This document shows positions 26,003-30,015 of a DNA stretch of 64,000 nucleotides, piece by piece; the first letter of the stretch is position 1; every line of letters begins with the position of its first letter. Under the pieces are notes generated by a model. That model saw only the letters and a list, made by a program, of their open reading frames with translations, searched no databases and was not told the DNA's origin. The stretch is from Brachionus manjavacas (Eukaryota; Rotifera; Eurotatoria; Ploima; Brachionidae), in NCBI GenBank assembly GCA_019054805.1, contig JAHQIY010000007.1:2485501-2549500 (forward strand), given 5' to 3'. Both the position numbers and the translations under genes were made by a program.

Positions 26003-29000
26003 TTATTCTTGATCGAACCAGTCCAGTTTGGGCTGTCCGTACGCTTGATTAGGCTGCGCATAGTATCCATGAGCAGGCATGTTCTGGTAGGCTTGTTGTG
26101 GCGCAAAAGGAGCAGCGTTCACATTGTAAAAATGGCTTTGGTTCTGAAAGCCACTCTGGTAATTTGGCTTTTGCTGATACTGATACTTTTGTCTGTAGTC
26201 CCTGCTGGCAAACTGGTTGAACCTGCCCATGCTCTGACTCGACTTTCCGTATTTGTTCTTGCTGGACGCTTGTCTAATGTCATCGATCATTTTGGTCAAG
26301 AACTCGGGCATGTCCTGCTGCGTCTCTTTGAGAATGTCATGCAAATCTTTGGCTATGTTTTTGTTTTTTTCATTGAAAAATGAAATGGCTTCGCCAGAGT
26401 TTCCGGCTCTGCCGGTACGGCCAATCCTGTGAACGTACTCGTCAATGTCGGTGGGAAGATCGAAATTGACCACAAATTTCACATTGGAAATGTCCAAGCC
26501 GCGGGCAGCAACTGCTGTTGCCACCAAAATTGGCTTGTTGGCGTTTCTGAACGCTCTCAAGGCCTCTTCGCGCTCATGCTGGCTCTTGTCTCCATGGATG
26601 CTTATGGCTGGATAGTTTTCATTTAAGAGAAAGCGTTCTAGGTCGTCAGCGCCGCGCTTTGTCTCCACAAAAACCAGAGTCAACGCATTTGGGTCTGTTC
26701 GCAGCAGATCAAGCAGAAACAAGCGCTTTTCGTCTTCTTCGACCCAAATGATCTTCTGGGTGATCATGGCAGAAGTGCTGCCAACGCGGCCAACTGCCAA
26801 GAAAATGTAGTTTCTCAGAAAGTCGCGCGCCAAGTGCTGAATTTCTTTGGGAAAAGTGGCCGAAAACATCATGGTCTGTCTGAAGCCAGTTCTGGGCATG
26901 TCTCTCTTTTCGACAATGTCTCTTATTTGCGGCTCAAAGCCCATGTCAAGCATGCGATCTGCCTCGTCCAAAATCAGGTAGCGAATTTTCTCTAGTCCAA
27001 CTTTGCCGCGGTCGTGCAAATCGATTAGACGGCCAGGCGTGGCTACCAGTATGTGACAGCCCGAGTCCAACTCTCTCATTTGACTCTTTATGTCCGAACC
27101 ACCATACACCACGCAAGGTTTCACTCTGGATCTGTACGAAAACTAAAACAAAAAGAAACAAGGTTAAAAAAATGGTCATTTGTTTTGAGAGGAGTCTTTG
27201 TCAGAGGTGTAGAATAAAGTCGTCATGTTTAGTTTCTTCTATAAAGTATCGGACTTTAATTTTGTCATCACAAAAGACTCTTGGGGTAAGAAGAAAAAAA
27301 AATAATGCAAAAAAGTTAGCTTGAGATCAGAAACGAGGAATTATTTGTCAGCACTTTGGCTAAGACAGGGATAACTTGTAAATCATCATTCAAGCTGTGT
27401 GGTAAAAGAAAAAAAATGTTATCTCAGCATAGAAGAACGGAAGTAAAGTGTCTTCATTATTGGAAAAAATTCGTATGGCGGAATCAAATTTTCATCATTG
27501 ATAACATGAGCTAATGTTAAGTTAGTTTTGCACTCACTTTTCTGGCTTCGTCAAAAATCTGCGATGCAAGTTCTCTAGTCGGCGCCAAAATCAAAGCCAA
27601 AGGCAGCAATTTTCTTCTCTTGTTCACATAGACACAATTTTGCTCATTTCCTGATTGGAATATAAGATTCAAAATAGGCACTAGAAATGCGGCCGTTTTG
27701 CCCGAACCTTGTTTAAAAATAAAAATTAAAAAAAAATTCTTTTAGGACTAAATCGGCAAAAATGGTTAAACAGATCAGCTCAAGTGTCTGATTGTCTCAG
27801 CATAAATGCACTAAGACAAAAAAAATGTCATCATGTCAAAAAATAGGAGGATTTTTTCAGCAACGAGGAATTATTTGTCAGCACTTTGGCTAAGACAGGG
27901 ATAACTTGTAAATCATCATTAAATCCGATCTAATAATTATTAGGCCACCAAAAAAGAAAATAAAATTAACATACCAGTTTGGGCACAGGCCATCAAGTCT
28001 CGTCGTGCAGAAATAATTGGCATGGCGTTTTTTTGCACTGGAGTGGGCTTTAAATAGTTTGTCAGCTTGATGTTATTCTGAATTATTTCATGAAAGTCCA
28101 GCTCTTCAAACTTGACAAGACAAAAATTAGAAAAAATTTATTTTTAAATTTTTGGCTTTAATTTAGAATTTCAGTGGGATCGGAGCAATATTTTCATATC
28201 GAATGATCAATGCGAATGCGCTTTATTCAACTCCTTTCATCATTAATTCTAATTTGCATCCAAACTTTAAAATGTGCTTACTGTATTGATCGGCGTGGGC
28301 AAATTATCTCCAGTTGTTTCAACAGGTATGTCTTCATACGAGTCAAAATTGATTCCATTCGAGGGCTTTTGGCCAAAAAGTTCACTTGAAAAGAAAAAAA
28401 CGAATAAAATAAAATTCAGAATAAAAAAAATTGAACATGTTTCATTTCTTCTTCTGTTTGATCGATGTGACTACAATCATACAGGGTAAGTCCTTGAAAC
28501 GATCTAGCAGAATTTAATTTTCGATTGATTATTGAAAGTAGAAAATCAATCAAAACTCAAAAACCTGCACTAAAAATGTGACCAAAAGTAAGCTTACCTT
28601 TCTACTTCTTGGTCGGCTTCTAATGGTCGGCCCCATTCATTCATGGAAATGCCCCCATTTCCATTCGGTTCATGGCCATTGAACGCTTGATTTCTTTGAT
28701 ACTGTCTTGGACCATTGGAGCCGTGTCTATTCGACCCGTTGCCTTGGTAACCATTTTGTCGGCACTCGATCTGCTCAGTCGGGGACATTATACCACCGTG
28801 CGTTTGCATCGGTCCTTGGCTGCCAAGTCCGTTCTGACCAACTTCGGAATTTTGATTCTCAAAACTAATTTGAAAAAAAAATAAAATTTTTTTTTCCTCT
28901 ATTTTCAAAAATTTAATCTCAGAATAGAAGAACGGTGTAAAAGTGTCTTCATTTGAAAATCGTATGGCGGAATCAAATTTTCCTCATTGATTAAATTTAT

Positions 29001-30015
29001 TTTTGAAAAAAAAGCTAAAAAAAAGTACTTTTTGTTATATCTGGGATTTTGTTGTCTTGGCTGGCCCTGATTAAACTTGTTATTTTGATTGAAAGTGTTT
29101 TGTTTATTAAAACCCATATTTGCTGAATTGCTATTAAACCTTTAAGTTGAAAAAAATAATTTTAATCTATCATATTTATAGGGAACAAAAAAAATTTCAG
29201 ATGATTGTGAAATTTTAAAATGGTCAGTGTAACTATGACATAGAAACTCATTTTTAAGCGTGATCTAGAGCCGAGTCACGCGGTTTGGAGAGAGAGCGCG
29301 CGATGGGTGCGTAGAACACGAACCTATCGAATAAACCAACATGAGACCGGCTCTGGCATCACTTCGTTGATTCAAATGCATCATCATTCCATTTTTAGAA
29401 GACAAAAATTCAGACTCGTACCTCTCAAAATTGGGATTGGCCTGAGAGCCGTTTTGGCTTCTTGGATTTGAGGGGAAATTTTTTTTTCCATTCATAGCAT
29501 TGTTGTTGTTTATGTCGCCAGACGGCGACCCGTTTTGGTAGTTTCTCGGGTAGCTGTTTCGCTGGGCTGGGTAGCCATTTTGTTCTCTAGGAAAGTGCTG
29601 GGCGGGCTGGGGCTCCGAGCTGCGTAAATGCGGCGGCACATATTCTATGTAAACAAAATTAGTTGTGTACAACAACAACAAAAATAATCAAGACATACTC
29701 TCATTGTTTGCTTTAGCGTGGTTTATATGCAAGTTTTCCAGCTTAAATGATATAAAGTTTTTGAGAAAAAAATGAGGGTTTATATGGATAGAAGTTCGAC
29801 TTTGAACTTTTTGTTGCTAGTACTAGAGAAAATTTCAAAATTTCAACGTGCTTTACAAGTTGAATGCTAAATTATTTTTTTGATATGCTCTTTAATACTT
29901 TATTCTTTTGCTATTAGAAATAAATTTTCATTTCAAGTCAACTGACCTGTCTTTCTATTTGGTTGAAGTGGTGGGCATCGTTATTGCTCATAATTGCAGT
30001 TGCATTACCGTTCAT
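26003..30015 (-). CDS. DDX3: DDX3/Belle/Ded1-type DEAD-box RNA helicase, 9 exons
   Basis: Exons on the minus strand are 29947-30015, 29699-29741, 29422-29644, 29029-29139, 28598-28864, 28282-28384, 27975-28110, 27538-27707 and 26003-27142. All are GT-AG and the sum is 753 codons plus stop. The N-terminus has the DDX3 hallmark YVPPHLR (about 39-45), then an N/G/Q-rich low-complexity region. The helicase core follows: Q motif KPTPVQ, motif [23 protein letters not shown] (433-436), SAT (468-470), motif V ARGLD and HRIGRTGR (612-619). The tail is Q/N/Y-rich. This family unwinds RNA in translation initiation and RNP remodelling. The introns between exons 3 and 9 carry snoRNA-like sequences (separate entries). 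An AATAAA overlaps the stop codon. Confidence 0.93.
27192..27280 (-). ncRNA. Candidate box C/D snoRNA (intron 8, third unit)
   Basis: On the DDX3 sense strand: C box GTGATGA (27265-27271), a C'-like ATGACGA near 27221, D box CTGA (27201-27204), and a closing stem pairing 27192-27200 with 27272-27280 (GAGTCTTT with AAAGACTC). The sequence before the D box, TTATTCTACACCT, is complementary to AGGTGTAGAATAA, which I recall as a conserved 28S rRNA stretch followed by GTGGGAGG. That predicts 2'-O-methylation of the G five positions from the D box. Confidence 0.72.
27318..27396 (-). ncRNA. Candidate box C/D snoRNA, isoform A1 (intron 8, second unit)
   Basis: C box ATGATGA (27383-27389), D box CTGA (27327-27330) and a 7-bp closing stem AGCTTGA/TCAAGCT. 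Inside, AAGTTATCCCTGT is followed by a weak D' (CTTA), then a C'-like GTGCTGA, then ATTCCTCGTT just before the D box. The two antisense stretches match ACAGGGATAACT (28S) and AACGAGGAAT (18S), both highly conserved rRNA segments as I remember them. The core is essentially identical to 27849-27926. Confidence 0.8.
27418..27506 (-). ncRNA. Candidate box C/D snoRNA, isoform B1 (intron 8, first unit)
   Basis: C box ATGATGA (27492-27498), C'-like ATGAAGA, D box CTGA (27424-27427) and a 7-bp stem TGTTATC/GATAACA. Two stretches are conserved with isoform B2 at 28911-28996: GATTCCGCCATACGA and CCGTTCTTCTAT before the D box. I do not recognise an rRNA or snRNA target. Confidence 0.72.
27766..27840 (-). 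ncRNA. Candidate box C/D snoRNA (intron 7, second unit)
   Basis: C box ATGATGA (27828-27834), an internal CTGA (27797-27800, possible D') and D box CTGA (27775-27778). The closing stem is imperfect (TTGACA with TGTTTAA, one bulge). Guide candidates are TTAGTGCATTTATG and CAGACACTTGAG; targets not recognised. Confidence 0.5.
27849..27926 (-). ncRNA. Candidate box C/D snoRNA, isoform A2 (intron 7, first unit)
   Basis: Near-identical internal sequence to isoform A1 (about 59 bp without a difference), with C box ATGATGA (27913-27919) and D box CTGA (27857-27860). The closing stem has a different sequence, GGATTT with AAATCC, so the stem is kept while its bases have changed. That is what selection on an RNA structure would produce. 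Confidence 0.78.
28163..28252 (-). ncRNA. Candidate box C/D snoRNA (intron 6)
   Basis: C box ATGATGA (28237-28243), D box CTGA (28171-28174) and a perfect 8-bp closing stem TTAGAATT/AATTCTAA. The segment before the D box, TTGCTCCGATCCCA, is the likely guide; target not recognised. It is the only such unit in this 171-bp intron. Confidence 0.72.
28452..28556 (-). ncRNA. Possible H/ACA-type RNA (intron 5)
   Basis: On the sense strand there is a hairpin GATTGATT/AATCAATC, an A-rich hinge, then a second hairpin closed by GATCG/CGATC. The upper stem is GACTtAC/GTAGTC and an internal loop separates the two, followed by AA-ACA. This is the order of parts in H/ACA RNAs, but AT-rich DNA makes such hairpins easy to find by chance and the pocket-to-ACA distance looks short. 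Confidence 0.3.
28911..28996 (-). ncRNA. Candidate box C/D snoRNA, isoform B2 (intron 4)
   Basis: Paralogue of B1: shares GATTCCGCCATACGA, ATGAAGACACTTTTA and CCGTTCTTCTAT. The C box is the variant ATGAGGA (28981-28987), the D box is CTGA (28919-28922) and the stem is ATTTAATC/GATTAAAT. As in the A pair, the closing stem differs in sequence from B1 but still pairs. Confidence 0.7.
29190..29397 (-). ncRNA. Structured GC-rich RNA candidate (intron 3)
   Basis: A GC-rich block in an AT-rich intron folds into one long hairpin. GTGAT and AGAGCCG (29345-29363 side) pair with CGGCTCT and ATCAC (29260-29277 side), GGTTT pairs with AAACC, and there is an inner GAT.GGT/ACC.ATC stem. A C-box-like ATGATGA (29381-29387) and a CTGA (29197-29200) bracket it. 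The large internal loops could be pseudouridylation pockets, so H/ACA is an alternative. It is also possible that only the hairpin is functional. Confidence 0.5.

Follow-up and report, generated by a model that had tools for sequence, protein, structure and literature searches.

Predicted box C/D snoRNA genes in the introns of DDX3 in the rotifer Brachionus manjavacas

How can an animal free several box C/D small nucleolar RNAs (snoRNAs) from one intron? The textbook route is one snoRNA per intron, trimmed by exonucleases from both ends (PMC11028025), and such trimming alone cannot free a middle unit. The DDX3 gene of the rotifer Brachionus manjavacas offers a natural and compact test of this question. 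It lies in a stretch of 64,000 nucleotides (nt; 64 kb), referred to here as the window, at contig position 2485501-2549500 of a 61-contig assembly of 114 Mb. An original prediction had placed seven C/D pairs on the DDX3 sense strand; all seven are present, and an eighth unit accompanies them. The units are very probably genuine box C/D snoRNA genes, and their density within a single host is unusual. Five of the eight DDX3 introns are read here, with high confidence, as hosting eight such genes, whose RNAs would be released by splicing and separation and would guide methylation of 18S and 28S ribosomal RNA (rRNA).

Eight C/D units in five introns

The DDX3 product is 94% identical over 667 amino acids to DDX3X of Brachionus plicatilis. 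Seven of the eight introns run from GT to AG. Intron 1 runs from GT to TG, and its acceptor is the least certain part of the gene model; the exons around introns 3-8 are unaffected. The host gene and the introns discussed below are as follows.

26003..30015, minus strand: DDX3 host gene, 9 coding exons, 8 introns, open frame of 752 amino acids
29421-29140, minus strand: DDX3 intron 3
29028-28865, minus strand: DDX3 intron 4
28597-28385, minus strand: DDX3 intron 5
28281-28111, minus strand: DDX3 intron 6
27974-27708, minus strand: DDX3 intron 7
27537-27143, minus strand: DDX3 intron 8

The units are listed in the order of transcription, with stem lengths in base pairs (bp).

29217..29395, minus strand: unit H, intron 3; C box 29387-29381, D box 29227-29224, 164 nt from C to D
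28909..28998, minus strand: unit G, intron 4; SNORD47-like, C box ATGAGGA, stem of 10 bp
28163..28252, minus strand: unit F, intron 6; stem TTAGAATT/AATTCTAA, D guide to own 18S
27849..27926, minus strand: unit E, intron 7; snoR38-like, double guide, stem GGATTT/AAATCC
27775..27834, minus strand: unit D, intron 7; 60 nt from C box to D box, D guide to 18S
27416..27507, minus strand: unit C, intron 8; SNORD47-like, stem ATGTTATC/GATAACAT
27318..27396, minus strand: unit B, intron 8 (middle); snoR38-like, double guide, stem AGCTTGA/TCAAGCT
27192..27280, minus strand: unit A, intron 8; C box GTGATGA, stem GAGTCTTT/AAAGACTC

Introns 3, 4, 6, 7 and 8 carry one, one, one, two and three units, respectively, and the motif finder described below returned none in introns 1, 2 and 5. 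The seven predicted pairs fall in introns 4 (G), 6 (F), 7 (E, D) and 8 (C, B, A). Unit H, which has the stem AAAATGG/CCATTTT and an internal hairpin, was absent from that set and lies within the stretch it spans. The C box RUGAUGA is perfect in seven of the eight units and has one mismatch in G, while a D box CUGA stands near the 3' end of all eight. A terminal stem was found by the finder in seven units. A stem had been predicted for each of the first seven; this holds for six of them (6-10 bp) and fails for unit D, whose inner CTGA is instead part of a 10 bp hairpin formed with adjacent bases. Internal C' and D' boxes, which are often degenerate in box C/D snoRNAs, give an ambiguous picture. 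A C'-like box with at most one mismatch occurs in seven units (F has two mismatches) and a D'-like CTGA with at most one mismatch somewhere in all eight; some of these C' and D' candidates overlap. Folding energy was uninformative for the seven short units (z -0.6 to -1.5) and by itself not significant for unit H (z -1.3).

The finder required a C box, a CTGA and a terminal helix, and was applied to both strands of the window. At the strict setting (perfect C box, C-D distance of at most 110 nt, stem score of at least 11), all five matches in the window fell on the sense strand of DDX3 introns (A, B, C, E, F). Allowing one C-box mismatch added G, together with two sense matches and one antisense match elsewhere in the window. 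When the C box was kept perfect and the C-D limit raised to 200 nt, H was added, also with a second, weaker choice of D box, and nothing elsewhere in the window. With both relaxations and a stem of 12, there were 13 sense and three antisense matches, nine of them in DDX3 introns. Unit D was missed because it lacks a terminal stem.

Shuffled introns gave no strict match in 200 rounds and, with one mismatch allowed, a mean of 0.04 and a maximum of 2. Whole-window shuffles gave no strict match in 20 rounds, and one match in 20 further rounds at C-D distances up to 200 nt. As a control, the finder was applied to both strands of 43 loci from elsewhere in the same genome. Loci inside the window and three foreign loci were excluded, and the remainder amounts to 162,035 letters, of which about 138,000 are distinct and readable. 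These loci held one strict match, in a locus obtained by a SNORD14 family search (L054), and this match is probably a snoRNA as well, given its source and its 15 bp guide to 18S.

Guides, families and paired copies

The genome's own 18S and 5.8S rRNA were found at one locus (L014). Contiguous duplexes beginning one or two bases upstream of CTGA were scored against this 18S at all 362 CTGA sites of the window, on both strands. Units F, D, B and E took the first four ranks (11.5, 11.5, 11.5 and 11; next 10.5), and their scores were each reached by none of 100 shuffled 18S sequences. Their D guides form 12 bp with one G-U pair at own 18S positions 1546 (F), 300 (D) and 1575 (B), and 11 bp at position 1576 (E). 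Unit D is backed as a candidate by this guide despite its absent stem. Three further guides pair with foreign 28S: the D guide of unit H over 11 bp with GTAACTATGAC (L019), the upstream guide shared by B and E over 12 bp with ACAGGGATAACT (L018), and the D guide of unit A, TCTACACCT, over 9 bp with AGGTGTAGA (L019), the last standing outside the 12 best 28S matches listed. These pairings are offered as guide-target predictions for a rotifer. The nucleotides predicted to be methylated are 18S 1579 (B/E), 1550 (F) and 304 (D), numbered along L014:2711-4517, and in 28S the last G of ACAGG (B/E), the second A of GTAAC (H), the C of TTGGC (C/G) and the last G of AGGTG (A).

Four units resemble known families. 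Against SNORD47 (RF00281, cut-off 50), unit G scores 43.2 bits (E 2e-6) and unit C 28.1 bits; against snoR38 (RF00213, cut-off 45), unit E scores 35.1 bits and unit B 34.8 bits. The scores lie under the gathering cut-offs, and the units are therefore called SNORD47-like (C, G) and snoR38-like (B, E). They come from a relaxed Rfam search of 3.1 kb that gave 26 rows, two of them not snoRNA, and weaker C/D-family matches of the same units among the rest.

The human host of SNORD47 is GAS5. Units C and G share with SNORD47 the guide TGATTCNGCCA and part of the 3' half; they differ from it in their scores below the cut-off and in their host, DDX3, and the box after their guide reads ACGA, two mismatches from CTGA. 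The B/E and H sites are placed tentatively on yeast numbering by way of the yeast rRNA sequence. Units B and E share with snoR38, the counterpart of yeast snR38 (25S Gm2815), the guide AGTTATCCCTGT and the C box. However, their D' box reads CTTA rather than CTGA, their scores are below the cut-off, and they carry a second guide, to 18S, that corresponds by the base five nucleotides from the box to yeast Gm1572 (snR57). The box-plus-five base of unit H is the second A of GTAAC and fits the site of snR63/U40/U46 (yeast 25S Am2256), two bases before Psi2258; no Rfam match of H to these families is listed, its host is DDX3, and its C-D distance is 164 nt. Yeast Gm2815 is reported to be guided by snR38, Gm1572 by snR57 with m7G1575 three bases on, and Am2256 by snR63 with Psi2258 two bases on (PMC5199042, PMC8307265). 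The local target sequences fit the Gm1572/m7G1575 and Am2256/Psi2258 spacings. In chicken, the reported targets are 28S G3847 for the snoR38 counterpart, 28S C3376 for U47, and 28S A3249 for the snR63-site guide, which lies in RPS8 (PMC2653536). Guides housed elsewhere in other hosts, such as RPS8 for the chicken snR63 site, would be gathered here in one helicase gene. As far as the available parts of these sources extend, no known counterpart of the F, D and A sites was found in the site tables of PMC5199042 and PMC8307265 or the chicken list of PMC2653536.

The paired copies bear on whether all units work. B and E share 97% identity across 67 nt, with boundaries almost exactly at the C and D boxes; their flanks differ, and their terminal stems have unlike sequences that nevertheless each pair. 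Between C and G, two double changes occur in ten stem pairs; 94.7% of cells are paired, against 29-42% in slid registers, where no double changes occur. The assertion that the units are snoRNAs is upheld by the own-18S guides, by the resemblance to SNORD47 and snoR38, and by stems that pair though their sequences have diverged. There is a modest chance that some units (one of B/E, one of C/G, and D) are decayed or redundant, leaving about five working snoRNAs. The nearly identical cores of B and E, the mismatched C box of G and the missing stem of D would fit such decay. However, the copies retain boxes, guides and pairing stems, and the guide of unit D ranks among the first four at 362 sites.

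In the 114 Mb assembly, a DNA search placed the snoR38-like and SNORD47-like sequences only at the DDX3 locus (two of two places each), at a sensitivity that would miss more diverged copies and with very common words skipped. The whole intron stretch had one other match, 53 nt of AT-rich intron 6 sequence on contig C11, which is probably low complexity. A family search of the genome with RF00213 returned nothing at E <= 0.001, and since it missed B and E too, it is uninformative on absence.

Several points weigh against eight functional snoRNA genes. The case is made from DNA sequence, and the DDX3 introns were compared within this one genome. No snoRNA match in the window reaches its Rfam cut-off, which a transfer RNA (tRNA) does. 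Unit D has no terminal stem by the finder. For the C/G stem, 111 of 500 shuffles did as well, which is not significant with only two sequences. The D guides of A, C, G and H have no match in the own 18S or 5.8S; against 18S, 66, 66, 78 and 99 of 100 shuffles do as well, respectively. The 28S used for the other guides comes from three contaminated metagenome-assembled genome contigs and is foreign. The C/G guide fits the Rfam SNORD47 alignment but has no match in this foreign 28S, and its 28S target is putative. Unit H is fourth in the 28S list, behind three sites outside the units: 47767 (low complexity), and 28834 and 31609 on the other strand. An unanchored rRNA scan gave many chance duplexes of guide length, intron 5 included; for this reason, a duplex counted only if it was anchored at a D or D' box. 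Finally, the 3' splice site is 281 nt from the end of C, 184 nt from that of B and 149 nt from that of E.

Separation of the units and weaker explanations

In all five introns, 54-84 nt separate the end of the last unit from the 3' splice site. The favoured position of intronic C/D snoRNAs is reported as about 50 nt upstream of the branch point (PMC8162545), and the last units lie roughly there. The spacers from D box to next C box are short: 22 nt between E and D, 34 nt between C and B, and 55 nt between B and A. Box C/D snoRNAs are stable RNAs to which fibrillarin, NOP56, NOP58 and SNU13 bind. In the proposed mechanism, the DDX3 pre-mRNA would be transcribed and spliced, C/D proteins would assemble on each C/D kink-turn closed by a terminal stem, and debranching and exonucleases would trim the outer ends. 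The units that share intron 7 or 8 would be separated by cleavage between them or by exonucleases that halt stepwise. Once released, the RNAs would direct fibrillarin to 18S and 28S, where it would methylate the nucleotide that pairs five positions from box D or D'.

The two snoR38-like copies were found in multi-unit introns only, and units must therefore probably be separated within the intron. Cleavage between units is the most likely release route for the internal units. In budding yeast, the RNase III Rnt1 is reported to separate polycistronic snoRNAs, whereas the factors that act on non-intronic co-hosted snoRNAs in human and fission yeast are described as mostly unknown (PMC12508059).

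The main rival to cleavage is that introns 7 and 8 yield snoRNA-ended long non-coding RNAs (sno-lncRNAs), capped by a unit at both ends, instead of separate snoRNAs. Two snoRNAs in one intron are described as producing sno-lncRNAs (PMC11028025), and no obvious cleavage signal was seen in the 22-55 nt spacers. Yet both snoR38-like copies lie in such introns, B in the middle, with both guides kept, which suggests separate snoRNAs. This outcome is given a small chance.

Hidden mini-exons, which would leave every snoRNA of introns 7 and 8 alone in its own intron, are very improbable. Acceptor-like pyrimidine tracts ending in AG do precede units B and A. However, the C-B and E-D spacers contain no GT, which makes a GT donor impossible and excludes mini-exons there; the single GT of the B-A spacer lies inside unit A's stem, and at the junctions of introns 7 and 8, the protein predicted for B. 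plicatilis DDX3X carries no additional residues. That the units are chance C/D-like motifs of AT-rich introns is scarcely conceivable: ATGATGA is common (32,621 on the genome's two strands), but this reading is already contradicted by the own-18S guides and by the near absence of strict matches from the shuffles and the control loci.

With eight snoRNA genes as the preferred reading, introns 7 (two units) and 8 (three) are intronic clusters in the sense of two or more units in one intron on the same strand. Animals are described as having predominantly one snoRNA per intron, yet intronic clusters exist (PMC11028025). The original prediction rightly saw a departure from the usual animal rule, but its comparison with plants was too strong, as Drosophila intronic clusters have been reported (PMC2780460, PMC2246290). 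Rice and Drosophila clusters likewise have several snoRNAs per intron of a spliced gene (PMC2780460). Those of Drosophila include H/ACA snoRNAs (PMC2246290), whereas rotifer DDX3 has three box C/D units in one 395-nt intron, intron 8. Judging by the literature searches, the units appear to be without precedent in this host and animal group, and they are ordinary in kind. EIF4A2 is a DEAD-box helicase. The pairing of such a helicase with snoRNAs, which had been thought suggestive, was already known from SNORD2, which lies in EIF4A2 (PMC11028025). DDX3X is treated as a binding protein (PMC11460701). Among the matches listed, 20 of 63, no title names DDX3 as a snoRNA host, and no snoRNA study of rotifers or Brachionus was evident by title or abstract opening in the literature searched.

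Tandem units elsewhere and neighbouring features

When the genome was searched with SNORD14, ten places were listed at an E value of 5 or less. The two best (44.1 and 35.7 bits, against a cut-off of 64) are U14 (SNORD14)-like genes that stand in tandem on the minus strand of one locus (L047:1501-1587 and 1613-1699), with 34 nt from D box to next C box. Tandem C/D units are therefore probably not confined to DDX3. A tentative extension is that this rotifer may routinely express box C/D snoRNAs as polycistrons, with internal units cut out at any distance from the 3' splice site, as an animal counterpart of the plant mode. The tandem U14-like array supports this possibility. The snoR38-like double guide was found only in the two multi-unit introns of DDX3 and never as the last unit; were the extension true, its ribosomal marks would depend on polycistron processing.

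The C/D-like unit in L054 lies at positions 1506-1582, counted along the minus strand. It has a stem of 8 bp, and its D guide pairs over 15 bp with own 18S ACATCTACGGAAGGC. Another locus (L016, contig C45) holds a bacterial-looking 23S, with a 5.8S model match of 43 bits and a bacterial-type sarcin-ricin-like motif; contig C45 may be a bacterial contig within the assembly.

Intron 5 (28385-28597) folds into two hairpins, the one long and AT-rich, the other with an ACA after it, and may be an H/ACA RNA. However, its fold is not clearly better than that of shuffles (z -1.6, 11 of 200 as good), by eye no H box ANANNA fits at the expected place, and the intron is left unassigned. About 21 kb from DDX3, a second DDX3-like gene (50995-52791, minus strand) encodes 598 amino acids in one uninterrupted frame and is 72% identical to DDX3 over the helicase core. 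It looks like an intronless copy and hence would carry no intronic snoRNAs. A tRNA gene lies at 63111-63183 on the minus strand (65.4 bits).

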